From: Neorhizobium petrolearium
GTDB taxonomy: Bacteria; Pseudomonadota; Alphaproteobacteria; Rhizobiales; Rhizobiaceae
NCBI RefSeq assembly: GCF_017873175.1
Contig: NZ_JAGGJW010000001.1
Location: 434,001-498,000, forward strand
Reading direction: 5' to 3'
Length of the DNA: 64,000 bases
Shown: positions 32,646 to 52,790 of the stretch, in pieces
How the letters are laid out: each line of letters opens with the position of its first letter
Position numbering within the stretch: position 1 is the stretch's first letter
The notes under the pieces: generated by a model
What the model was told of the DNA's origin: nothing
The model's input: the letters and a program-made list of their open reading frames with translations, nothing else
Databases searched by the model: none
Program-made: the position numbers and the translations under genes

Positions 32646-32794
32646 TTGAGCTTCATTTGTCGGGACGAAGTTTCTCCATGGCCATGAGTTGCCGGGGATA
32701 TCTGCTTTTGCCTGCAGGCCTGCCAAGCTGTGTTAGCTTCGCTAAGGCGACCAGGACACCTCTTTGACGGCTGGAGCTTGAGCTTTTAGCTTCC

Positions 32795-32829
32795 GTGTCG
32801 GGCGCTATCCGTTGCTTTTGCCCGGACAC
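32795..32829 (+). other. Hairpin in the leader region of the 85-aa gene
   Basis: GTGTCGGGC and GCCCGGACAC pair with a single bulged G and a 16-nt loop. No T-run follows, so it is not an obvious terminator. It lies 20 nt upstream of the conserved leader element. Confidence 0.45.
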
Positions 32830-32848
32830 AAGCGCATGCTCCGAACTT

Positions 32849-32917
32849 CAGCAGCCGTTTAAAGGGCGCTGCTGCTTCAGGGCATCCATACCCTGGCCCC
32901 AATGAAAGGAGGAGGCC
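32849..32917 (+). promoter_or_regulatory. Conserved two-hairpin leader element, copy 1 of 3
   Basis: Stem 1: CAGCAGC (32849-32855) with GCTGCTG (32868-32874), loop ending GGGC. Stem 2: CAGGG with CCCTG. Then GGCCCCAA and AGGAGG directly before ATGTC. The same order and spacing recur at 34533-34603 and 36931-37000 (minus strand), with compensating base changes in stem 1. Confidence 0.6.
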
Positions 32918-33175
32918 ATGTCTTCCATCCTTCATCCTAAGAACATCGCGCGTAATCTGGTTCGGGTTGGTGGATCGGGATACCGCGAGAATATCGAACT
33001 CAAGGAAGCCGGTGAGCGCGCTCGACATGCGGAAGTTGCCATCAGCGGCTTTCAGGCGGGCGTCACCGGAGCAGGCATAACGCTGTCCCGCTTAGCCGAT
33101 TTTGGCAAGGCGCGATCCGTGGGCATTGTTGCCTATCTGGGCGAGCGCAGGGATACAGCACGACCTCTGCTATAA
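32918..33175 (+). CDS. Hypothetical protein, 85 aa, with conserved leader
   Basis: MSSILHPKNIARNLVRVGGSG, then a Glu/Lys/Arg-rich segment and a glycine-containing AGVTGAGITLSRLADFGKA. No domain recognised; no membrane helix is clear. AAAGGAGGAGG lies just upstream. The first codons (ATGTCTTCC) resemble those of the two other genes with the same leader. It is followed by an 8-bp inverted repeat. Confidence 0.6.
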   Translation: MSSILHPKNIARNLVRVGGSGYRENIELKEAGERARHAEVAISGFQAGVTGAGITLSRLADFGKARSVGIVAYLGERRDTARPLL

Positions 33176-33179
33176 CGAG

Positions 33180-33199
33180 GCCTCGATCGATATCGAGGC
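33180..33199. other. Inverted repeat after the 85-aa gene
   Basis: GCCTCGAT-CGAT-ATCGAGGC, perfect 8-bp arms, 5 nt after the stop. No T-run, so it may be a weak terminator or mRNA 3' stabiliser. Confidence 0.4.
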
Positions 33200-33258
33200 G
33201 ACAGATGCATCGTCGCGAACTGAAACAATCCTATACCACCGGCACAGGAGAGGCTAAA

Positions 33259-33399
33259 ATGGCCAAGGGTCAAATACGCAGCAATCGGGAAGCTCGAAAA
33301 CCGAAGAAGGATAAGAGCGCAACTCCAGTGGCTGCGGCCCAAGGGGCACAAGTCAAGCTTGCTCAGAGCGGTCTTGGCTTGGGGAAGAAATCCAAATGA
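33259..33399 (+). CDS. Small basic protein, 46 aa
   Basis: Starts MAKGQIRSNREARKPKKDK; the first half is strongly basic and the second Ala/Gln/Gly-rich, so the protein is probably disordered and may bind nucleic acid. CAGGAGAGG precedes the ATG. Proteins with this N-terminus are frequent in rhizobial annotations (recollection), without known function. It ends before a shared terminator. Confidence 0.6.
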   Translation: MAKGQIRSNREARKPKKDKSATPVAAAQGAQVKLAQSGLGLGKKSK

Positions 33400-33404
33400 A
33401 TTCG

Positions 33405-33430
33405 GTGGAGGCACCGTAGGGCGCCTCCAC
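33405..33430. terminator. Terminator hairpin between convergent small gene and repeat-protein gene
   Basis: GTGGAGGC and GCCTCCAC pair around a 10-nt loop. It lies 5 nt after the plus-strand stop and 6 nt after the minus-strand stop, so it may serve both. Confidence 0.55.
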
Positions 33431-33436
33431 TGTTCT

Positions 33437-34210
33437 TCAATCCATGACGCAGACACCGCCGCGCAGCCGATAGGGACGACTACAGTCCCAGCCATTGCCG
33501 GTCGAGTTGAGATGCGCGTTCTCAGGAAGCTCGATCCGTAAGCATTCATCGGCCCTCATTTCGAAGCCTCGGTCGCATTTCCATTTCTGCCCATAGGATG
33601 CGTCGACGAAAATAGCGTTCTCCGGAACCCGGACGGCGACACACGCCTGCTCCTTCTTCTCAAAGCCTCTATCACACCTCCACTCGTCTCCGCCGGTTGT
33701 CAGATAGGCGTGGGCGGGGACTTCGAGCCTGATGCATGCCTGTTGGGTTGTCCGATAACCCCTCTCGCATTCCCAACCGGATCCCTGGGTCGTGTCCGAC
33801 AAGAATGCGTTCTCCGGAACTTTAATAAGGTCGCAGCCCATGTCGCTTTGACGGTAACCACGCAGGCATCTCCAGCGATCGCCGGAATACGGGTCGAGGT
33901 AGGCATTCTCCGGAACCTGAACGGCGAGGCATTGATCACCCTTTTCGAGAAAGCCGTAGTGGCAATCCCAGCCTTTGCCGTAAGAGGTGTTCGTCAGAAA
34001 GGCGTTGTCCGGAAGCTTCACCTCAGAACAGGCATCATCCTGCCTTCGAAAGCCACGATTGCAGTCCCAGCCGGAGCCGTAGCGGCTCGCCTGAGCATTT
34101 TCAGGCATCGGCTTCGCGGACTGGCCAAACGCTTGGGAACCGAGCATCGATGCAAAAAGCAGGAGGATAGCTATGGTCAGGGCCAGTGCCCTGTAAGATG
34201 GTTGGCGCAT
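33437..34210 (-). CDS. Secreted protein of seven tandem PENA/W-C-x10-C repeats
   Basis: 257 residues. A signal peptide covers about 1-30 (SYRALALTIAILLLFASMLG, cleavage near QAFG-QS). The rest is seven repeats of 31-33 residues starting at positions 36, 68, 100, 132, 165, 196 and 229. Each follows the pattern P-E-N-A, then G-x-x-W-x-C-x10-C. The Cys pairs are 50/61, 83/94, 115/126, 148/159, 179/190, 212/223 and 243/254; each pair probably makes one disulfide outside the cytoplasm. I know no function for the repeat; a binding or envelope role is inferred from secretion. The gene is alone, within the small-gene island. Confidence 0.85.
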   Translation of the reverse strand: MRQPSYRALALTIAILLLFASMLGSQAFGQSAKPMPENAQASRYGSGWDCNRGFRRQDDACSEVKLPDNAFLTNTSYGKGWDCHYGFLEKGDQCLAVQVPENAYLDPYSGDRWRCLRGYRQSDMGCDLIKVPENAFLSDTTQGSGWECERGYRTTQQACIRLEVPAHAYLTTGGDEWRCDRGFEKKEQACVAVRVPENAIFVDASYGQKWKCDRGFEMRADECLRIELPENAHLNSTGNGWDCSRPYRLRGGVCVMD

Positions 34211-34304
34211 GAGTTTGTCTCCAATAGGCCGTATCCGCCTATCTCAGACCGAAGGTCCGAGAAGCGACGCGGACGGGCGGGAAATAGCCAAGGGCATTGC
34301 GGGG

Positions 34305-34532
34305 CTACCGAAGCTTCGGCTTTTTCTCCGGAGTTTCCAGGGCAGCGGCAGGCCTGGGCGATATCATCGGACCGACGAGCGGCGGGCCCTGAAGGTGCCG
34401 CCTCCTGCGAGCCGCGGCAGAGACTATCCCAACTTTACGGTTTCCTGGATTTCGCCCGCTTTCGCAGTCTGCGTTCAGGAGCATTTTCTGAAAATAAAGC
34501 AGGAAGTTGGCATGCGAGGATCGGGACGACAT
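34305..34532 (-). CDS. Doubtful small ORF behind a conserved leader (75 aa; possibly decayed)
   Basis: The ATG is preceded by AGGAGGAC and by copy 2 of the leader element. The first residues, MSSRSSH, resemble MSSRSRH and MSSILH of the other two leader genes. After that, the Arg/Pro-rich translation looks non-protein-like, so a frameshifted or decayed paralogue is possible. Confidence 0.35.
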   Translation of the reverse strand: MSSRSSHANFLLYFQKMLLNADCESGRNPGNRKVGIVSAAARRRRHLQGPPLVGPMISPRPAAALETPEKKPKLR

Positions 34533-34603
34533 CGCGTCCTCCTCTTGTCGGGGCTAGGGCACATCCGTCCCTCAGGCGGCAGCGCCCTGACCAGTTGCAG
34601 CCG
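34533..34603 (-). promoter_or_regulatory. Conserved two-hairpin leader element, copy 2 of 3
   Basis: Minus strand: CGGCTGC (complement of 34597-34603) with GCTGCCG (34577-34583), one T-T mismatch, loop ending GGGC; then AGGG...CCCT, AGCCCC and AGGAGG before ATGTC. Same 70-nt layout as the other copies. Confidence 0.6.
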
Positions 34604-34855
34604 ACAAAATACCTTGAGCTTCATTTCTGCCTTTGGCAAGCAAGGCTTTGACCCTTCGTGCAGCATCTTGAAAGCGACGCACTGCAACACTATATAAAAG
34701 GTACGTTTTCAGCCTTGCGGCTACCTGATCCTCCCGGCTGCGCCGGTTGCTTGGCAAACCCTGATTTTGCGAACGTTGCGAACTCTGGCCCCCCGGCTGG
34801 AGGAGAGGTTTGTGCCGGACGCCCTCGTCTGGCAGCCATACTGAGGATGCCAATC

Positions 34856-35053
34856 ATGATCAAGACAACCCGCCATGCCGCCGAAGGCCTGTTCAAGCGT
34901 CCAGATCCCGCAGAGGGATCCGATGCCGCGAAGCTGCAGGATTTTCGCAGCAGACAAATTCTCCGGAAGCGGGAAACGAAACTCGCCGAGATGAAGCAGC
35001 GTCTCCAAAAACGCGCCACGGACACCGTCGGGCTGACCTCGTTCTTCCGTTGA
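34856..35053 (+). CDS. Small basic helical protein, 65 aa
   Basis: Starts MIKTTRHAAEGLFKRPDPAE; the rest is an amphipathic, charged helix rich in Arg, Lys, Gln and Leu. GAGG lies 9 nt upstream. An ATG three codons earlier is also in frame. No family recognised; it could be a nucleic-acid-associated small protein. Confidence 0.5.
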   Translation: MIKTTRHAAEGLFKRPDPAEGSDAAKLQDFRSRQILRKRETKLAEMKQRLQKRATDTVGLTSFFR

Positions 35054-35127
35054 TGCCGCAGGAGCGGTGAAGCCCGATTGCCCTCGACAAAATCTCCATC
35101 TCCCTCCGATCGCAAGGAACAGGACTT

Positions 35128-35373
35128 ATGGCGGCTTTCGACTACAATGCAGGTGCGGGGCTCTACCCGTGCAAGACCATCAACAGAAGGAGTCGCCTCC
35201 GCTACAAAAGGTTCGATTCCGCCGCCGAAGCTCTTCGCTTTGCGATCGAGGATATGCCGGCCTCTCTTCTTCGAGGGTCCGTGCTGGAAATCGATGAAGC
35301 GCGTTTCGATGGCATGCAGATGCGCAAGCTCTACGAGGCCGAAGCATATCCGCTGGCGCGACGGAAATCGTGA
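35128..35373 (+). CDS. Hypothetical protein, 81 aa
   Basis: MAAFDYNAGAGLYPCKTINR, then YKRFDSAAEALRFAIEDMP and EIDEARFDGMQMRKLYEAEAYPL. The composition is protein-like, and I recall similar sequences in other rhizobia without function. The RFDSAAEALRFAIE stretch resembles a small alpha-beta domain. AAGGAAC lies near the start. Confidence 0.6.
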   Translation: MAAFDYNAGAGLYPCKTINRRSRLRYKRFDSAAEALRFAIEDMPASLLRGSVLEIDEARFDGMQMRKLYEAEAYPLARRKS

Positions 35374-35490
35374 GGCGCGGTGCTGATGCGATTTGCCCGA
35401 CCGCTATGTCCGCATAATTCTCCGAGCGCAGGCAGAGGGACCATAGGCGACTATTTTCAAAGATCTTTCTATCCACGCAAGGACTGAACA

Positions 35491-35784
35491 GTGAATACGA
35501 TCACGCTTACACCCGCCCAGATCAGGGGCCTGAAACTCGCCAAGGAAGGGGACCTGTTTCCGCGGGAGGGCGATCGATGGACGCACCTTGATGCCTCCGT
35601 CACCTATGCAAAGAACGACCGGTTTCGGGAGCGACCGCAAAAGATCAAGTTTCTCACATCGTCGACATTGGCCACGTTGCGGGAGTTTGGACTTCTGCGC
35701 AGTCTCGATCCCGACGGGAAGACGCAAGAGGCCGCCCATGGGATTACCCTGGCTGGCAAGATGTGGCTTCTGAAGAACAAGTAA
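35491..35784 (+). CDS. Hypothetical protein, 97 aa (GTG start)
   Basis: Starts MNTITLTPAQIRGLKLAKEG from GTG with AAGGA about 8 nt upstream. The central KFLTSSTLATLREFGLLRSLD followed by GITLAGKMWLLKNK suggests a small winged-helix-like fold with a C-terminal lysine tail. Family not recognised. Confidence 0.6.
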   Translation: MNTITLTPAQIRGLKLAKEGDLFPREGDRWTHLDASVTYAKNDRFRERPQKIKFLTSSTLATLREFGLLRSLDPDGKTQEAAHGITLAGKMWLLKNK

Positions 35785-35839
35785 TCCATCGAGAGCGCCG
35801 GTCTTTCGGCGTTCCCTATTTCTTGAAGCGGAGCCCGTC

Positions 35840-36100
35840 ATGACCCTTCTATTTCCGAACAGGAGCCGCAGCTTCGACGATGTGCGCAAGGTGGTGCGCT
35901 TTCTCGGCTATGATGGCATGTTCGAGGTTCGGTTCTTTGTGGAGGCGGCCGCGCTTGCAAAGACGTCGGCCGGAATGTCGGAGACTGACTATCTCAGGGC
36001 CTTCGATGCGGCCCGTCCCGACATTCAGGAAGCCGCGACGAGACTTTATCACCCCAAGCGCGGAACGACCTATACGCTCACAGCTGCGGATCTGGGCTAG
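35840..36100 (+). CDS. DUF1488 family protein
   Basis: 86 residues. MTLLFPNRSRSFDDVRKVVR, FLGYDGMFEVRFFVEAAAL, YLRAFDAARPDIQEAATRLY and the C-terminal YTLTAADLG correspond to the DUF1488 pattern. Function unknown. One of several DUF genes in this island (with DUF982 and DUF6481). Confidence 0.75.
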   Translation: MTLLFPNRSRSFDDVRKVVRFLGYDGMFEVRFFVEAAALAKTSAGMSETDYLRAFDAARPDIQEAATRLYHPKRGTTYTLTAADLG

Positions 36101-36195
36101 CTCTTGCGGTCTCCGGGAGCCGCCCTGCGAGGGTCCAAGACTACCCGAAATGCAAAGCGCGCACGCACCCGGCGAATTCAAGTGTTACGCTACGG

Positions 36196-36543
36196 CTATC
36201 TCAGGCGAAAATCCGCCTGCGCGCATGCGGCGATGAAGTCGTCGCGCATTTCTTCAGGCGTGATCAAGCCTTTCAACGCATCGTAACAACGATGGCGCGC
36301 TCTCCAATAAGGAAACCCTGTCTGGATGGCCCTATTGTCGGTCAGATATTGAAGGGCATCTTGAGGGCCACTGACCTTTCGGGTCGGCTCATCTCCGATG
36401 GCAACATAAACCGGCACTTTCCAGCGGGTTCCAAATTCAATTCGTATGACGTCCGATTCCACGGGTTCTCCATAACTGATCGCTGATATGGTGCCGTCGC
36501 CAATATGACGGGTCGCGGAGCTGCCCGTCTTTGAAATGTTCAA
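36196..36543 (-). CDS. DUF982 family protein (TTG start, coupled)
   Basis: 115 residues. The C-terminal two thirds have the DUF982 pattern: GDEPTRKVSGPQDALQYLTD, WRARHRCYDALKGLITPEEM and FIAACAQADFRL. The likely TTG start overlaps the TGA of the preceding gene in TTGA, indicating translational coupling. The second of two tandem DUF982 genes. Function unknown. Confidence 0.72.
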   Translation of the reverse strand: MNISKTGSSATRHIGDGTISAISYGEPVESDVIRIEFGTRWKVPVYVAIGDEPTRKVSGPQDALQYLTDNRAIQTGFPYWRARHRCYDALKGLITPEEMRDDFIAACAQADFRLR

Positions 36544-36779
36544 ATGGTATGCGTCTTATTCAGGCAGGCTTCCCTTACAGCCCCATCAAAGGAGACGCGG
36601 GCTTCCTGGGGCGTCTGGCGTCCGTCCAGGGCTGCCAGTATCGCCATATGCGCCAGCGCAAACTGCGCCCCTTTTACATGGGGCCAGGATTTCATCATGA
36701 AATGATGAGCCTCCAACGGGCCGATGATCGAAGCATTTCCGATTTTCACCGGCGGCATCCATCGTGCTGTCAGCAGCAT
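36540..36779 (-). CDS. DUF982 family protein, short
   Basis: 79 residues. PPVKIGNASIIGPLEAHHFM, WPHVKGAQFALAHMAILAAL and ARVSFDGAVREACL match the DUF982 core. GGGAGGA lies 6 nt before the ATG; the frame is open for 25 codons further upstream but without a start signal. First of the tandem pair, 31 nt after the 39-aa membrane-peptide gene. Confidence 0.72.
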   Translation of the reverse strand: MLLTARWMPPVKIGNASIIGPLEAHHFMMKSWPHVKGAQFALAHMAILAALDGRQTPQEARVSFDGAVREACLNKTHTI

Positions 36780-36810
36780 GGTTTTCCTCCCGGCCGGCTG
36801 GTTTGAACTC

Positions 36811-36930
36811 TCACCATAGCCATCCCTCGGATAACATGAAGATGATGAGGGCAAAACTCAGGCCTGCCACCGCTCTGGGAGCCACCATGTCATATGAGTT
36901 GTGCAGAAAATGTCGGGATCTGGAAGACAT
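36811..36930 (-). CDS. 39-aa single-pass membrane peptide with conserved leader
   Basis: MSSRSRHFLHNSYDMVAPRA followed by one hydrophobic helix VAGLSFALIIFMLSEGWLW. AAGGAGGAC lies directly before the ATG, and copy 3 of the leader element lies upstream. It is probably co-transcribed with the two DUF982 genes. Function unknown. Confidence 0.6.
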   Translation of the reverse strand: MSSRSRHFLHNSYDMVAPRAVAGLSFALIIFMLSEGWLW

Positions 36931-37000
36931 GTCGTCCTCCTTGATTGGGGCTAGGGCACTTTGGCCGCCCTTACGACAACGCCCGTATCAGTTGTTGCCG
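36931..37000 (-). promoter_or_regulatory. Conserved two-hairpin leader element, copy 3 of 3
   Basis: Minus strand: CGGCAAC (complement of 36994-37000) with GTTGTCG (36974-36980), one G-U pair, loop ending GGGC; then AGGGC...GCCCT, AGCCCCAA and AGGAGG before ATGTC. Stem 1 differs from copy 1 at several paired positions while keeping pairing. Confidence 0.6.
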
Positions 37001-37205
37001 ACTGCCGATGATGAAGCGTAATTAAGTCTTAACAAAGGCCGGGGCGGCCGTTTGTCTGGCAAATGTCGCGCCAATGCGAAGTTTCCCCGGATTATCGCCG
37101 TGATAGCGCCAGGGAATACGGCTTCGACGGATCGGGCAGATCCGCCGATAAAGAAGCCCGCCATTTCTGGCGGGCTCATCTTCCGATCGGTGACGGGGAA
37201 GCCGG

Positions 37206-37376
37206 TCAGTTCTTGCCGGTATTTCTGCGGCCCTTGTCCTGCTTGCCTTTCGCCGACGATGTCTTGGCATCATAACCTTGGCCGAAATTCGTGCCGCCGA
37301 GATGCCCGCCTCCGCTGGTATTCGCCACCTGGCGTTCGGCTCTCTTCGATTGCTGTTGCGCGTCTGTCTTTTTCAT
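37206..37376 (-). CDS. Small basic Gly/Lys/Gln-rich protein, 56 aa
   Basis: Starts MKKTDAQQQSKRAERQVANT and ends KGKQDKGRRNTGKN, with a glycine-rich middle (SGGGHLGGTNFGQGYDAK). Highly charged and probably disordered. It lies 111 nt downstream of a cold-shock gene, after that gene's terminator. No clear ribosome-binding site. Function unknown. Confidence 0.55.
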   Translation of the reverse strand: MKKTDAQQQSKRAERQVANTSGGGHLGGTNFGQGYDAKTSSAKGKQDKGRRNTGKN

Positions 37377-37406
37377 AAAAATCGCTTTCGTGAAAGAAAA
37401 ACAAAA

Positions 37407-37426
37407 GGCCGGGTGAGAACCCGGCC
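37407..37426 (-). terminator. Terminator of the cold-shock gene at 37.5 kb
   Basis: Minus strand GGCCGGGT and ACCCGGCC form a perfect 8-bp stem with a 4-nt loop, followed by TTTTGTTTTT. Confidence 0.85.
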
Positions 37427-37487
37427 TCCCAAGGCTTCGACGATCTGTGCCGGTACATCCATGGTCAAAGACCGGAAGCTTGGTGGG

Positions 37488-37697
37488 TTAGGCAGTTTGA
37501 AGGTTTTCGGCCGCGCTTTTGCCCGAGCGCTTGTCCGTCACGAGGTCATAGCTGACCTTCTGGCCTTCACTGAGGTAGGTCATGCCCGAGCGTTCGACGG
37601 CGGAGATGTGAACGAACACATCCTTTGAGCCATCGGAGGGCTGAATGAAGCCGAAGCCTTTTGCCGTGTTGAAGAATTTCACGATACCATCGTTCAT
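37488..37697 (-). CDS. Cold-shock protein (CspA family)
   Basis: 69 residues, one cold-shock domain. RNP1 is KGFGFIQP and RNP2 [10 protein letters not shown]. It binds single-stranded nucleic acids and melts RNA structure. The 181-nt upstream gap may hold a structured leader. Similar in layout to the second csp gene 2 kb away; both end in ENLQTA/GQLQTA. Confidence 0.95.
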
Positions 37698-37878
37698 GCC
37701 GACTTCCTTTCAATCACAAGTGTTCGCAATCGGCCGATCGCCGAATGCGGTCATAATCGAGTTTGAGAGGGAAGATCAGCTCGGGCACCTGCGGTGCAGA
37801 AACGTAGCTCAACAAGCAAAGTCGATGAGATACGTATAGGCTTCAACTGTGGTGAGAACAAGATGTGGCGGCAATTAA

Positions 37879-38949
37879 TTAAGGTTGTGTTCGGGGATTG
37901 AGGCCGCAACCTGACGGCCTGGCCACCTTGGCGGCATCCCGGAACGAAACCAGCTTGCCGCTCCTTTCGTCCCAGAGCACGAGCCTGACGCATTGCAGGC
38001 TCTGCCACAGGGTTATGCGGCCGATATCCCCCAGTTCCGGATGGTCGCGCAATACCTCCGGCAGCCTGTAATAGGGAATCCTGCTCGACAGGTGATGGAC
38101 GTGGTGAACGCCGATATTTCCGGTCATCCAGCGGAGCACCGGCGGCAGGTCGTAATGGGAGGCGCCATGAAGCGCAGCCTCGGGAAACTGCCATTCGGCT
38201 GTCTTCGACCAGTGCGTCTCCTCGAACTGGTGCTGGACGTAGAAAAGCCACACGCCGGCTGCTCCCGCGATAAGCACGACCGGCAGATGGATCAGCAGGA
38301 ACGGAATGAGCCCGACGACCCATATCATAAGGACGGTCAGAATTGCGACCGCCAGGTTCGTTGCCATGGTGGACATCCATGGCATGACCCCGGAGCTCAT
38401 CATGCCGAAGGGCAGGCGCTGCTTGAGGAGAAAAAGCCATGCAGGTCCGACGCCGAACATCACGAGCGGGTGTCGATAGAGCCGATAGGCAAGACGTCTC
38501 GACCGGGAAAGAGAATAATATTCGGCGACAGTCAGCGTGGTGATGTCGCCGACACCCCGTTCATCGAGGTTTCCTGCCGTGGCATGGTGGCCGGCATGCG
38601 CCCGCCGCCAGTAGTCATAGGGCGTCAGGGTCAGCACGCCGATGATACGGCCGGTCCAGGTATCGAGACGCCGGCGGCCAAAAAACGAGCCATGTCCGCA
38701 ATCATGCTGGATCATGAAGAGGCGCAGCAAAAAGGCGGCAGCCGGCAGGACAAGGATCAGACCCGGCCAGAACCCCTGGAAGACGGAGATATAGGCCCCG
38801 GCCCAGAAGGCTGCAAAAGGGAAAACCGTCACGAGGAGCTCGAAAACGCTCCGCCCGGAATGCGGCTGCCGGTATTTCGAAAGGATCTTCAGCCAGATAC
38901 CGGCATCGTCTCCGGAAGCCGCGTCAATTGCATGGGCATTGGCGTTCAT
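37879..38949 (-). CDS. Membrane acyl-lipid fatty-acid desaturase
   Basis: 356 residues. Three histidine boxes of the di-iron centre are present: HDCGHG, HAGHH and HVHHL, plus several membrane helices (for example LILVLPAAAFLLRLFMI and MIWVVGLIPFLLIHLPVVLI). This is the DesA/omega-6 desaturase type, which introduces double bonds in membrane lipids. Its position between two csp genes points to cold adaptation. The start at MNANAHAID is preferred over an open extension of 25 codons. Confidence 0.9.
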   Translation of the reverse strand: MNANAHAIDAASGDDAGIWLKILSKYRQPHSGRSVFELLVTVFPFAAFWAGAYISVFQGFWPGLILVLPAAAFLLRLFMIQHDCGHGSFFGRRRLDTWTGRIIGVLTLTPYDYWRRAHAGHHATAGNLDERGVGDITTLTVAEYYSLSRSRRLAYRLYRHPLVMFGVGPAWLFLLKQRLPFGMMSSGVMPWMSTMATNLAVAILTVLMIWVVGLIPFLLIHLPVVLIAGAAGVWLFYVQHQFEETHWSKTAEWQFPEAALHGASHYDLPPVLRWMTGNIGVHHVHHLSSRIPYYRLPEVLRDHPELGDIGRITLWQSLQCVRLVLWDERSGKLVSFRDAAKVARPSGCGLNPRTQP

Positions 38950-39034
38950 GGAATTCCATTCGCTTTTCTTGGTCTCGGCGTGAGCGCCATCGAAGTGGGG
39001 TTTACCTGCCCGCTCCCGGCACATCCTTCATCTG

Positions 39035-52521: not shown

Positions 52522-52600
52522 GTGATCTCCTTTGGCTCGACACGTCACCCAAGGCGATCACGCACGTCATCAGCCCCCGCGATGGCGGGTGCTGTACGTC

Positions 52601-52737
52601 CGTTCTCTTCCATCCGGACTATGACCGTCGGCTCAGGCATCGCACCTGATCTGCTGACCCTTCCGTTGGAAGGCGCTCGCGGGCTCACGACTTGCGCCGC
52701 ATACCGCCGGTGGGGAATTCCGCCCCGCCCTGAGAAC
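52601..52737 (-). promoter_or_regulatory. FMN riboswitch (RFN element) of ribH2
   Basis: Minus strand shows the conserved RFN blocks in order: TTCTCAGGGCGGGG, AATTCCCCACCGGCGGTA, AGCCCGCGAGCGCC, GGTCAGCAGATC, GATGCCTGAGCCGACGGT, ATAGTCCGGATG and GAAGAGAACG. Downstream a CCCGC/GCGGG hairpin and then the ribosome-binding site follow, so control of translation or termination is possible. Confidence 0.95.
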
Positions 52738-52790
52738 ACCTGTGATCTAGCTTGAAGCCTGTCAGGAAAGCAAGGCCGGATTGCTGCCAG

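Follow-up and report, generated by a model that had tools for sequence, protein, structure and literature searches.

A family of pseudoknot-containing leader RNAs in rhizobia and their relatives that probably acts as a translational switch

The window analysed here is a stretch of 64,000 nucleotides (nt) from Neorhizobium petrolearium (contig NZ_JAGGJW010000001.1, positions 434,001 to 498,000), in which three small genes are each preceded by a leader of about 70 nt. These leaders almost certainly represent a real and large family of structured cis-regulatory RNAs, which apparently lacks a description so far, and we put the probability that the family works as a cis-acting translational switch at roughly two in three. 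The element is an H-type pseudoknot, in which the loop of a first stem (P1) ends in GGC and pairs with a GCC located directly after an embedded hairpin (P2). The initial annotation, made from the letters of the window, had reported the three copies as a two-hairpin leader; their P1 arms, including a mismatch in copy 2 and a G-U pair in copy 3, and the ATGTC starts of the genes at 32918 (+), 34532 (-) and 36930 (-) all lie where it had placed them. Its reading of the leader as a cis-acting regulatory RNA is supported by further matches, strong covariation and an upstream promoter-like motif.

R1, a covariance model with the three window copies as seeds and a check that the initial annotation had proposed, gave 88-97 bits for these seeds and 18.8 bits for the next-best match in the window, so the similarity of the copies is not due to chance. 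Among 60 relatives, 30 genomes were matched by R1 at E<=0.1. Of these, 29 are among the 36 members of the genus; each of the 29 has 1-7 copies, and in 26 of them the best E is <1e-3. The thirtieth genome belongs to another family (E 0.011). Many further copies before small genes, on which the initial annotation had staked its reading, were found in genomes of the genus, the family and the order. The seeds of a second model (R2) came from 76 matches, which were reduced to 71 by dropping four overlap repeats and L067 (no match to the pseudoknot rule), and then to 55 non-redundant sequences; after L012, L050 (two hits), L053, L072 and L032 were removed by hand, R2 was made from the 23 of the remaining 49 that have a 3-nt junction between P1 and P2. 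A third model (R3) comprises 103 matches at E<=2e-5 in 94 hand-chosen loci. Stretches with a damaged pseudoknot or stems and low R2 scores are present in L050 (1515-1581, -; 900-971, +) and L053 (1498-1564, +), and may be decaying leaders.

The comparative evidence for the fold is strong. In an alignment of 103 sequences, changes on both sides of a pair were found at 7/7 pairs of P1 and 5/5 pairs of P2, although this alignment was fitted to P1 and P2, which favours them, and not to the pseudoknot. The whole structure was paired in 94.9% of cells, compared with 39.9-56.0% when slid by 1-3 columns, and none of 500 shuffles was as high on any of five structure measures; non-pairing cells made up 3.4% in P1 and 10.2% in P2. 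The pseudoknot is mostly GGGC:GCCC and was paired in 98.7% of cells, with two both-side changes (one C-G and one U-A), both at the fourth pair. In a MAFFT alignment of 23 sequences made without model fitting, both-side changes were present at 5/7 pairs of P1, 4/5 of P2 and 0/4 of the pseudoknot.

Moreover, when copies were collected with a pattern omitting the P1 5' arm, a pairing arm was found in 146 of 170 copies, whereas shuffling the upstream sequence gave 40.6 (maximum 46), and the GGC strand lies in the P1 loop in 141 of these 146. The fourth pseudoknot pair is formed in 97 of the 141 copies against 71.2 expected (A-U 53, G-U 26, C-G 14); these structure counts include related copies that share ancestry. 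Unpaired bases of the P1-P2 junction are also conserved in order-level copies (C in 55/59, U in 52/59). The plain two-hairpin reading of the initial annotation is replaced, because the loop GGGC pairs with the GCCC located 3' of the second stem, the loop of 141/146 copies contains GGC and the fourth pair covaries. When the copies were folded singly, only copy 3 was clearly better than shuffles (z -2.5, compared with -0.7 for copy 1 and -0.8 for copy 2), and for a fourth copy in the same genome, shown by a plain sequence pattern, folding favours another hairpin. Since single copies mostly fold no better than shuffles, the support for the element comes from comparison and not from folding energy.

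An expectation-maximisation search upstream of 162 copies returned a TTG(C/T)-type block of 7 nt followed 10-11 nt later by a (G/C)(C/T)A(T/C)-containing block, which ends 8-12 nt before P1 in 134 of the 162 copies. A simple form of this motif was present near P1 in 75/162 copies, compared with 1.3 (at most 5) after shuffling, and the three window copies agree with it by eye. Because this promoter-like motif lies just upstream of P1, the element probably begins at the mRNA 5' end and represents the whole 5' untranslated region (5' UTR); the start would then be at the edge of the element and not inside it, a position that would have contradicted the initial annotation. A conserved and covarying structured domain, as a riboswitch has in its 5' UTR, is found here, with its 5' UTR position resting on the promoter-like motif. 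The spacing of the motif would suit both sigma-70 and RpoH promoters, so no choice is made between the two, which are closely alike in rhizobia according to the parts covered of PMC4842269, PMC4167512 and PMC3616915. An EcfG general stress promoter was rejected, as GGAAC-N15-18-CGTT (consensus in part from PMC4167512) occurs in 0/162 upstream stretches.

Downstream of the pseudoknot, the Shine-Dalgarno (SD) sequence is complementary to different partners in different copies. The three window copies belong to the MSS type, in which the SD GGAGGAC pairs with GTCTTCC, that is, with codons 2-3 and the last base of the start codon, and this pairing explains the near-invariant ATGTCTTCC. The initial annotation had found no shared coding sequence apart from MSS(I/R) and had taken the RNA to be the conserved part; the latter holds, but MSS is not a mere coding feature, as ATGTCTTCC lies in a third hairpin with the SD. 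In 96 MSS-like copies, chosen for having TCN or CCN as second and TCN as third codon (other codons excluded, and a few not MSS proteins), codon 2 is TCT in 88 and codon 3 is TCC in 89, whereas among 568 serine codons further into the same genes TCT makes up 14% and TCC 18%. The SD hairpin had -9.9 kcal/mol with the native codons and only -5.2 kcal/mol with random serine codons, and in 93 of the 96 copies it was stronger than in that copy's own control. This serine codon choice rules out a purely coding reason for MSS. In 51 copies of the MSS type, the SD-codon hairpin reached -9.62, compared with -5.66 (standard deviation, s.d., 0.22) with codons shuffled; VMSS/MMSS rows (at least L015, L116 and L117) fell into the non-MSS set of this contrast, weakening it, and 98/103 rows had a start. 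Non-MSS copies lack the codon hairpin (-4.77 vs -4.31, s.d. 0.26), as does the Bradyrhizobium type (-4.15 vs -4.42).

The features of the three window leaders are as follows.

32812..32838, +: copy 1 promoter-like -35/-10 pair TTGCTTT-N11-AAGCGCATG (from the motif of 162 leaders; placed by eye)
32849..32855, +: copy 1 P1 5' arm CAGCAGC (sequence and 103-sequence alignment)
32864..32867, +: copy 1 pseudoknot 5' strand GGGC (comparative alignments)
32868..32874, +: copy 1 P1 3' arm GCTGCTG (sequence and 103-sequence alignment)
32878..32895, +: copy 1 hairpin P2, CAGGG...CCCTG (comparative alignments)
32896..32899, +: copy 1 pseudoknot 3' strand GCCC (comparative alignments)
32908..32926, +: copy 1 putative SD/start hairpin GGAGGA...ATG TCT TCC (serine-codon and SD-hairpin tests)
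32918..33175, +: copy 1 gene, 85 amino acids (aa) (MSSILHPKNIARNLVRV...; look-alike proteins, by eye, behind other leaders)
34613..34639, -: copy 2 promoter-like pair TTGCCAA-N11-AAGCTCAAG (from the motif of 162 leaders; placed by eye)
34550..34603, -: copy 2 P1 (arms CGGCTGC/GCTGCCG at 34603-34597/34583-34577, one T-T mismatch), pseudoknot (34587-34584 with 34554-34551) and P2 (model match and alignment)
34305..34532, -: copy 2 gene, 75 aa (MSSRSSHANFLLYFQKML...; look-alike proteins, by eye, behind other leaders)
37009..37035, -: copy 3 promoter-like pair TTGTTAA-N11-GCTTCATCA (from the motif of 162 leaders; placed by eye)
36947..37000, -: copy 3 P1 (arms CGGCAAC/GTTGTCG at 37000-36994/36980-36974, one G-U), pseudoknot (36984-36981 with 36951-36948) and P2 (model match and alignment)
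36811..36930, -: copy 3 gene, 39 aa small membrane-type protein (...LSEGWLW; look-alike proteins, by eye, behind other leaders)

Outside the MSS type, many copies have a P2 3' strand that is complementary to the SD and partly varies together with it, the partner pairs including GCUUUC/GAAAGC, GCUUCC/GGAAGC, GCUCUU/AAGAGC and GUGCUCCC/GGGAGCAC. For 81 copies, collapsed from 103 unique non-MSS copies, the complementarity between the P2 3' strand and the SD (P2-3'/SD) averaged 4.70 nt compared with 4.19 (s.d. 0.10) when permuted, with 0/500 permutations as high, and the duplex reached -9.23 compared with -8.47 (s.d. 0.22), with 0/100 as strong. Permutation within the order-level set gave 5.42 vs 4.99 (0/500); the sets used for within-set permutations were collapsed from 54 to 46 and from 50 to 38 copies. 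In the 155 of 176 Bradyrhizobium-type copies that had a start, P2-3'/SD pairing reached -13.66, compared with -9.36 with shuffled SD regions. A strand shared by the folded domain and an SD-blocking duplex, as in a riboswitch, may exist in non-MSS copies, whose complementarity exceeds permutation, and is absent from the MSS type of the window.

In the proposed mechanism, transcription would start at or just before P1, and the leader would fold into P1, the embedded P2 and, a few bases before the SD, the GGC:GCC pseudoknot, a fold supported by the covariation. In many non-MSS copies, the P2 3' strand could instead pair with the SD, to which it is complementary. Because pairing within P2 and pairing with the SD exclude each other for this strand, the pseudoknot fold would leave the SD free and represent the ON state, and the alternative P2-3'/SD duplex would block the SD and represent the OFF state. 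In the MSS type, the SD would be held in the hairpin with codons 2-3, the AUG being exposed in or near the loop. Since many copies per genome precede sensors, regulators and small proteins, the cue that tips the switch, which may be a small molecule, a protein or temperature, would be a global one of stress or signalling and not a single metabolite. The two kinds of SD pairing, which go with different types, are independent signs of control at translation. The conserved function seems to be the hiding of the SD, the means being exchanged between types.

Several results weigh against this mechanism or limit it. The pseudoknot core GGC:GCC is nearly invariant and itself without covariation, and a fifth pseudoknot pair, formed in 92/141 pattern copies vs 83.5, is not clearly above expectation. 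The P2-3'/SD effect is moderate, with only 24/81 copies having at least 6 exact complementary bases (~11% expected). It was weaker on permutation within the Rhizobiaceae set (4.11 vs 3.86, 15/500), and all these permutations keep shared ancestry, so that related copies count more than once. In the 155 Bradyrhizobium-type copies most of the complementarity is common to all, as their own value of -13.66 compares with -13.34 (s.d. 0.10) when permuted; GGGAGC is present in only 35 of them, 27 of which extend the pairing by one base. The MSS copies are without P2-3'/SD complementarity (-6.14 vs -6.70 shuffled). One mechanism does not cover all copies, as the MSS type has no alternative pairing.

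As far as tested, the element is alphaproteobacterial and patchily distributed, being richest in Rhizobiaceae and in a Bradyrhizobium-like genus (g143), in which its consensus is tighter. R3 found six copies in the genome of the window at E<=0.001, the three window copies and those at C2:118996, C6:318283 and C18:127576. Of 151 genomes of the family, 58 had an R2 match (E<=0.01), and of 297 genomes of the order, 37 had an R3 match (E<=0.001). Because these searches scored only some of the candidates, the copy numbers are minimum values, and some of the weak matches around E 1e-3 may be due to chance. Among 31 genomes drawn around a Bradyrhizobium-like genome, R3 matched 16 at E<=0.01, all in g143. 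Of 41 genomes, 23 contain the pattern GGTGRCTGAGAG-N3-28-GCTCCCGCC, up to 14 times each, and all 23 fall within the 25 g143 genomes; the reversed control pattern is present in 0/41. A pattern scan of named genomes returned at least 120 stretches, and the 80 matches listed are above all from Bradyrhizobium, with others from Methylobacterium, Microvirga, Nitrobacter, Afipia, Tardiphaga, Sphingobium, Sphingosinicella, Phenylobacterium, Roseomonas, Skermanella and Rubellimicrobium, and from two metagenome bins named Armatimonadetes and Acidobacteriaceae, which may be mis-binned. At E<=0.05, R3 matched 15 of 19 hand-chosen loci of these 80 at the place of the pattern, and gave no match in the remaining four (L243, L248, L276 and L290). 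A looser pattern was found in 1/289 class genomes and in 6/299 phylum genomes, all six in g143. R3 matched 14 of 150 phylum genomes, one of them outside the class (G879, E 3e-4, 52 bases only), probably by chance. Copies also occur in clusters within a few kb, sometimes divergent (L249 1654, 2963 and 4096; G884 C1:2233781 and 2233945), and clustering seems to be a habit of the leader family.

The genes behind the leaders are diverse. The 85 and 75 aa proteins have no Pfam or NCBIfam match, and the 39 aa protein has none in NCBIfam, the only library searched for it. The three proteins are unrelated within the window, as initially annotated; beyond it this does not hold, since each resembles, by eye, a type of small protein recurring behind other leaders, which include small helical-looking proteins (LxxLxxVLxxAG...) and small membrane-type proteins often ending in GWLW. 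Further leader genes encode cyclic-nucleotide-binding (Crp-like), GAF, PAS, response regulator, DUF6894 and small zinc-ribbon-like proteins. Among ten leader-gene examples, six have Pfam matches (E<=0.01), of which five exceed the curated cut-off and one, the zinc-ribbon example, falls short of it; the other four have none. Plasmid p42f of R. etli CFN 42 contains five copies within 12 kb, and the same stretch carries genes for a Crp/Fnr regulator and a response regulator as well as DUF982 genes, htpG and a cold-shock gene; in S. meliloti 1021, two copies are on pSymA and a weak one (E 7e-4) is on pSymB, and a model search found no copies on R. johnstonii pRL12. The window neighbourhood is ~80% identical to Rhizobium plasmids. 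A DUF982 gene, a cold-shock gene and a fatty-acid-desaturase-like open reading frame lie beside the leaders at 36196-39024, and the p42f leader neighbourhood likewise has DUF982, cold-shock and desaturase genes and htpG. Between the leaders, at 33437-34210 (-), a 257 aa protein has repeated cysteine-rich units (W-x-C-x-R-G-Y/F ... P-E-N-A); its one Pfam match, an EGF-like MSP1 domain (E 1e-9), a name unexpected in rhizobia, is probably a resemblance in cysteine pattern only.

Of the other explanations, an RNA thermometer, in which heat simply melts the SD hairpin or the P2-3'/SD duplex and the role of the pseudoknot domain is limited to insulating or stabilising it, is somewhat unlikely. An SD in a hairpin of moderate stability, as a thermometer has, is found in the 96 MSS-like copies (mean -9.9 kcal/mol) and not in other types, and the neighbourhoods would suit heat control, with the five p42f copies among htpG, DUF982 and cold-shock genes and the window cluster beside a cold-shock gene. 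However, models of ROSE thermometers are in Rfam, and the element has no Rfam match at E<=5; its conserved pseudoknot and junction bases would be superfluous for a simple thermometer. In favour of a thermometer, the promoter spacing is also compatible with RpoH-type promoters reported for R. etli in the part covered of PMC4167512. The many copies per genome before unrelated genes, together with the conserved unpaired junction bases (C 55 and U 52 of 59), are what one would expect of a binding site for a trans-acting RNA-binding protein or small RNA coordinating the gene set, which we consider unlikely. A passive 5' UTR module, an mRNA stabiliser or ribosome stand-by site copied with its promoter before new genes and not switching, would account for the promoter-like motif and leader occurring as a unit and for the diverse downstream genes, but the SD is sequestered by two unrelated means, which a passive enhancer does not need, making this reading quite unlikely. 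It is highly improbable that the leader is the end of a mobile or repetitive element landing near genes by insertion, which the initial annotation had offered as an alternative: copies do cluster (three within ~4 kb in the window, five within 12 kb in R. etli), but those listed mostly precede an SD and start codon at a similar distance and have the promoter-like motif in common, across 2.9 million viral contigs two patterns matched no more than 15 and 13 stretches, and no defined ends, target duplications or transposition genes were noticed on reading the window sequence, in which no systematic search for them was made. The 28 viral-contig stretches (L391-L418) each carry one of the two leader patterns.

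No known family of Rfam 15, including SAM-II, preQ1-II, fluoride and ROSE, falls on the element in the window or other loci, a comparison that the initial annotation had also proposed. The whole window has three Rfam matches (an FMN riboswitch and two tRNAs), 32700-37200 has three at E<=5, and 20 Bradyrhizobium-like and other order-level loci have three at E<=1, none of them on the element. The FMN riboswitch lies at 52598-52741 (-) and scores 110 bits. The preQ1-II and SAM-II riboswitches have an H-type pseudoknot near the SD in a short leader and control translation by SD access. The element resembles them in its H-type pseudoknot near the SD, its short leader and its proposed control by SD access, but differs in having no Rfam match, in preceding signalling and small-protein genes rather than a metabolic pathway and in its many copies per genome. 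In the fluoride (crcB) riboswitch, a hairpin loop pairs beyond a second hairpin, as in the element, but its conserved bases are different; the element has no Rfam match, and the leader examples examined include no transporter genes. ROSE and other RNA thermometers are rhizobial 5' UTRs in which the SD is held in a hairpin, with a stress-gene neighbourhood. The element shares these traits, but has no Rfam match, contains a covarying pseudoknot and pairs its SD with codons 2-3 or the P2 3' strand. ROSE is named in the part covered of PMC4167512. The alphaproteobacterial motifs of Corbino 2005 and Weinberg 2010, as far as these papers were covered, are likewise cis elements from comparative genomics in the same bacteria, whereas the element matches no Rfam family. 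By title and abstract, no description of the motif was found in the literature, although one under another name is possible; it is not described in the parts covered of the structured-RNA surveys PMC2864571 and PMC8632094, and a term search of the available part of PMC11109978 gave no occurrence.

A wider reading, which we advance only tentatively, is that the leaders form a large riboswitch-like class across Alphaproteobacteria (up to at least 14 copies per genome) that senses one global signal, such as a second messenger or stress metabolite, with its platform swapped between the P2-3'/SD duplex and the SD/codon hairpin. If true, such a class would set the translation of sensors, Crp-like regulators, response regulators, DUF6894 proteins and small proteins as a regulon. 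The leaders would also be a natural example of one sensing-like domain joined to two ways of hiding the ribosome-binding site. Widely repeated structured leaders before signalling genes are rare; the c-di-GMP riboswitches are known repeated leaders that exposed whole regulatory networks. The element marks a previously unseen gene set in rhizobia, Bradyrhizobium, Methylobacterium and relatives, including many small proteins without an assigned function, and joint translational control of the leader-bearing genes is predicted.

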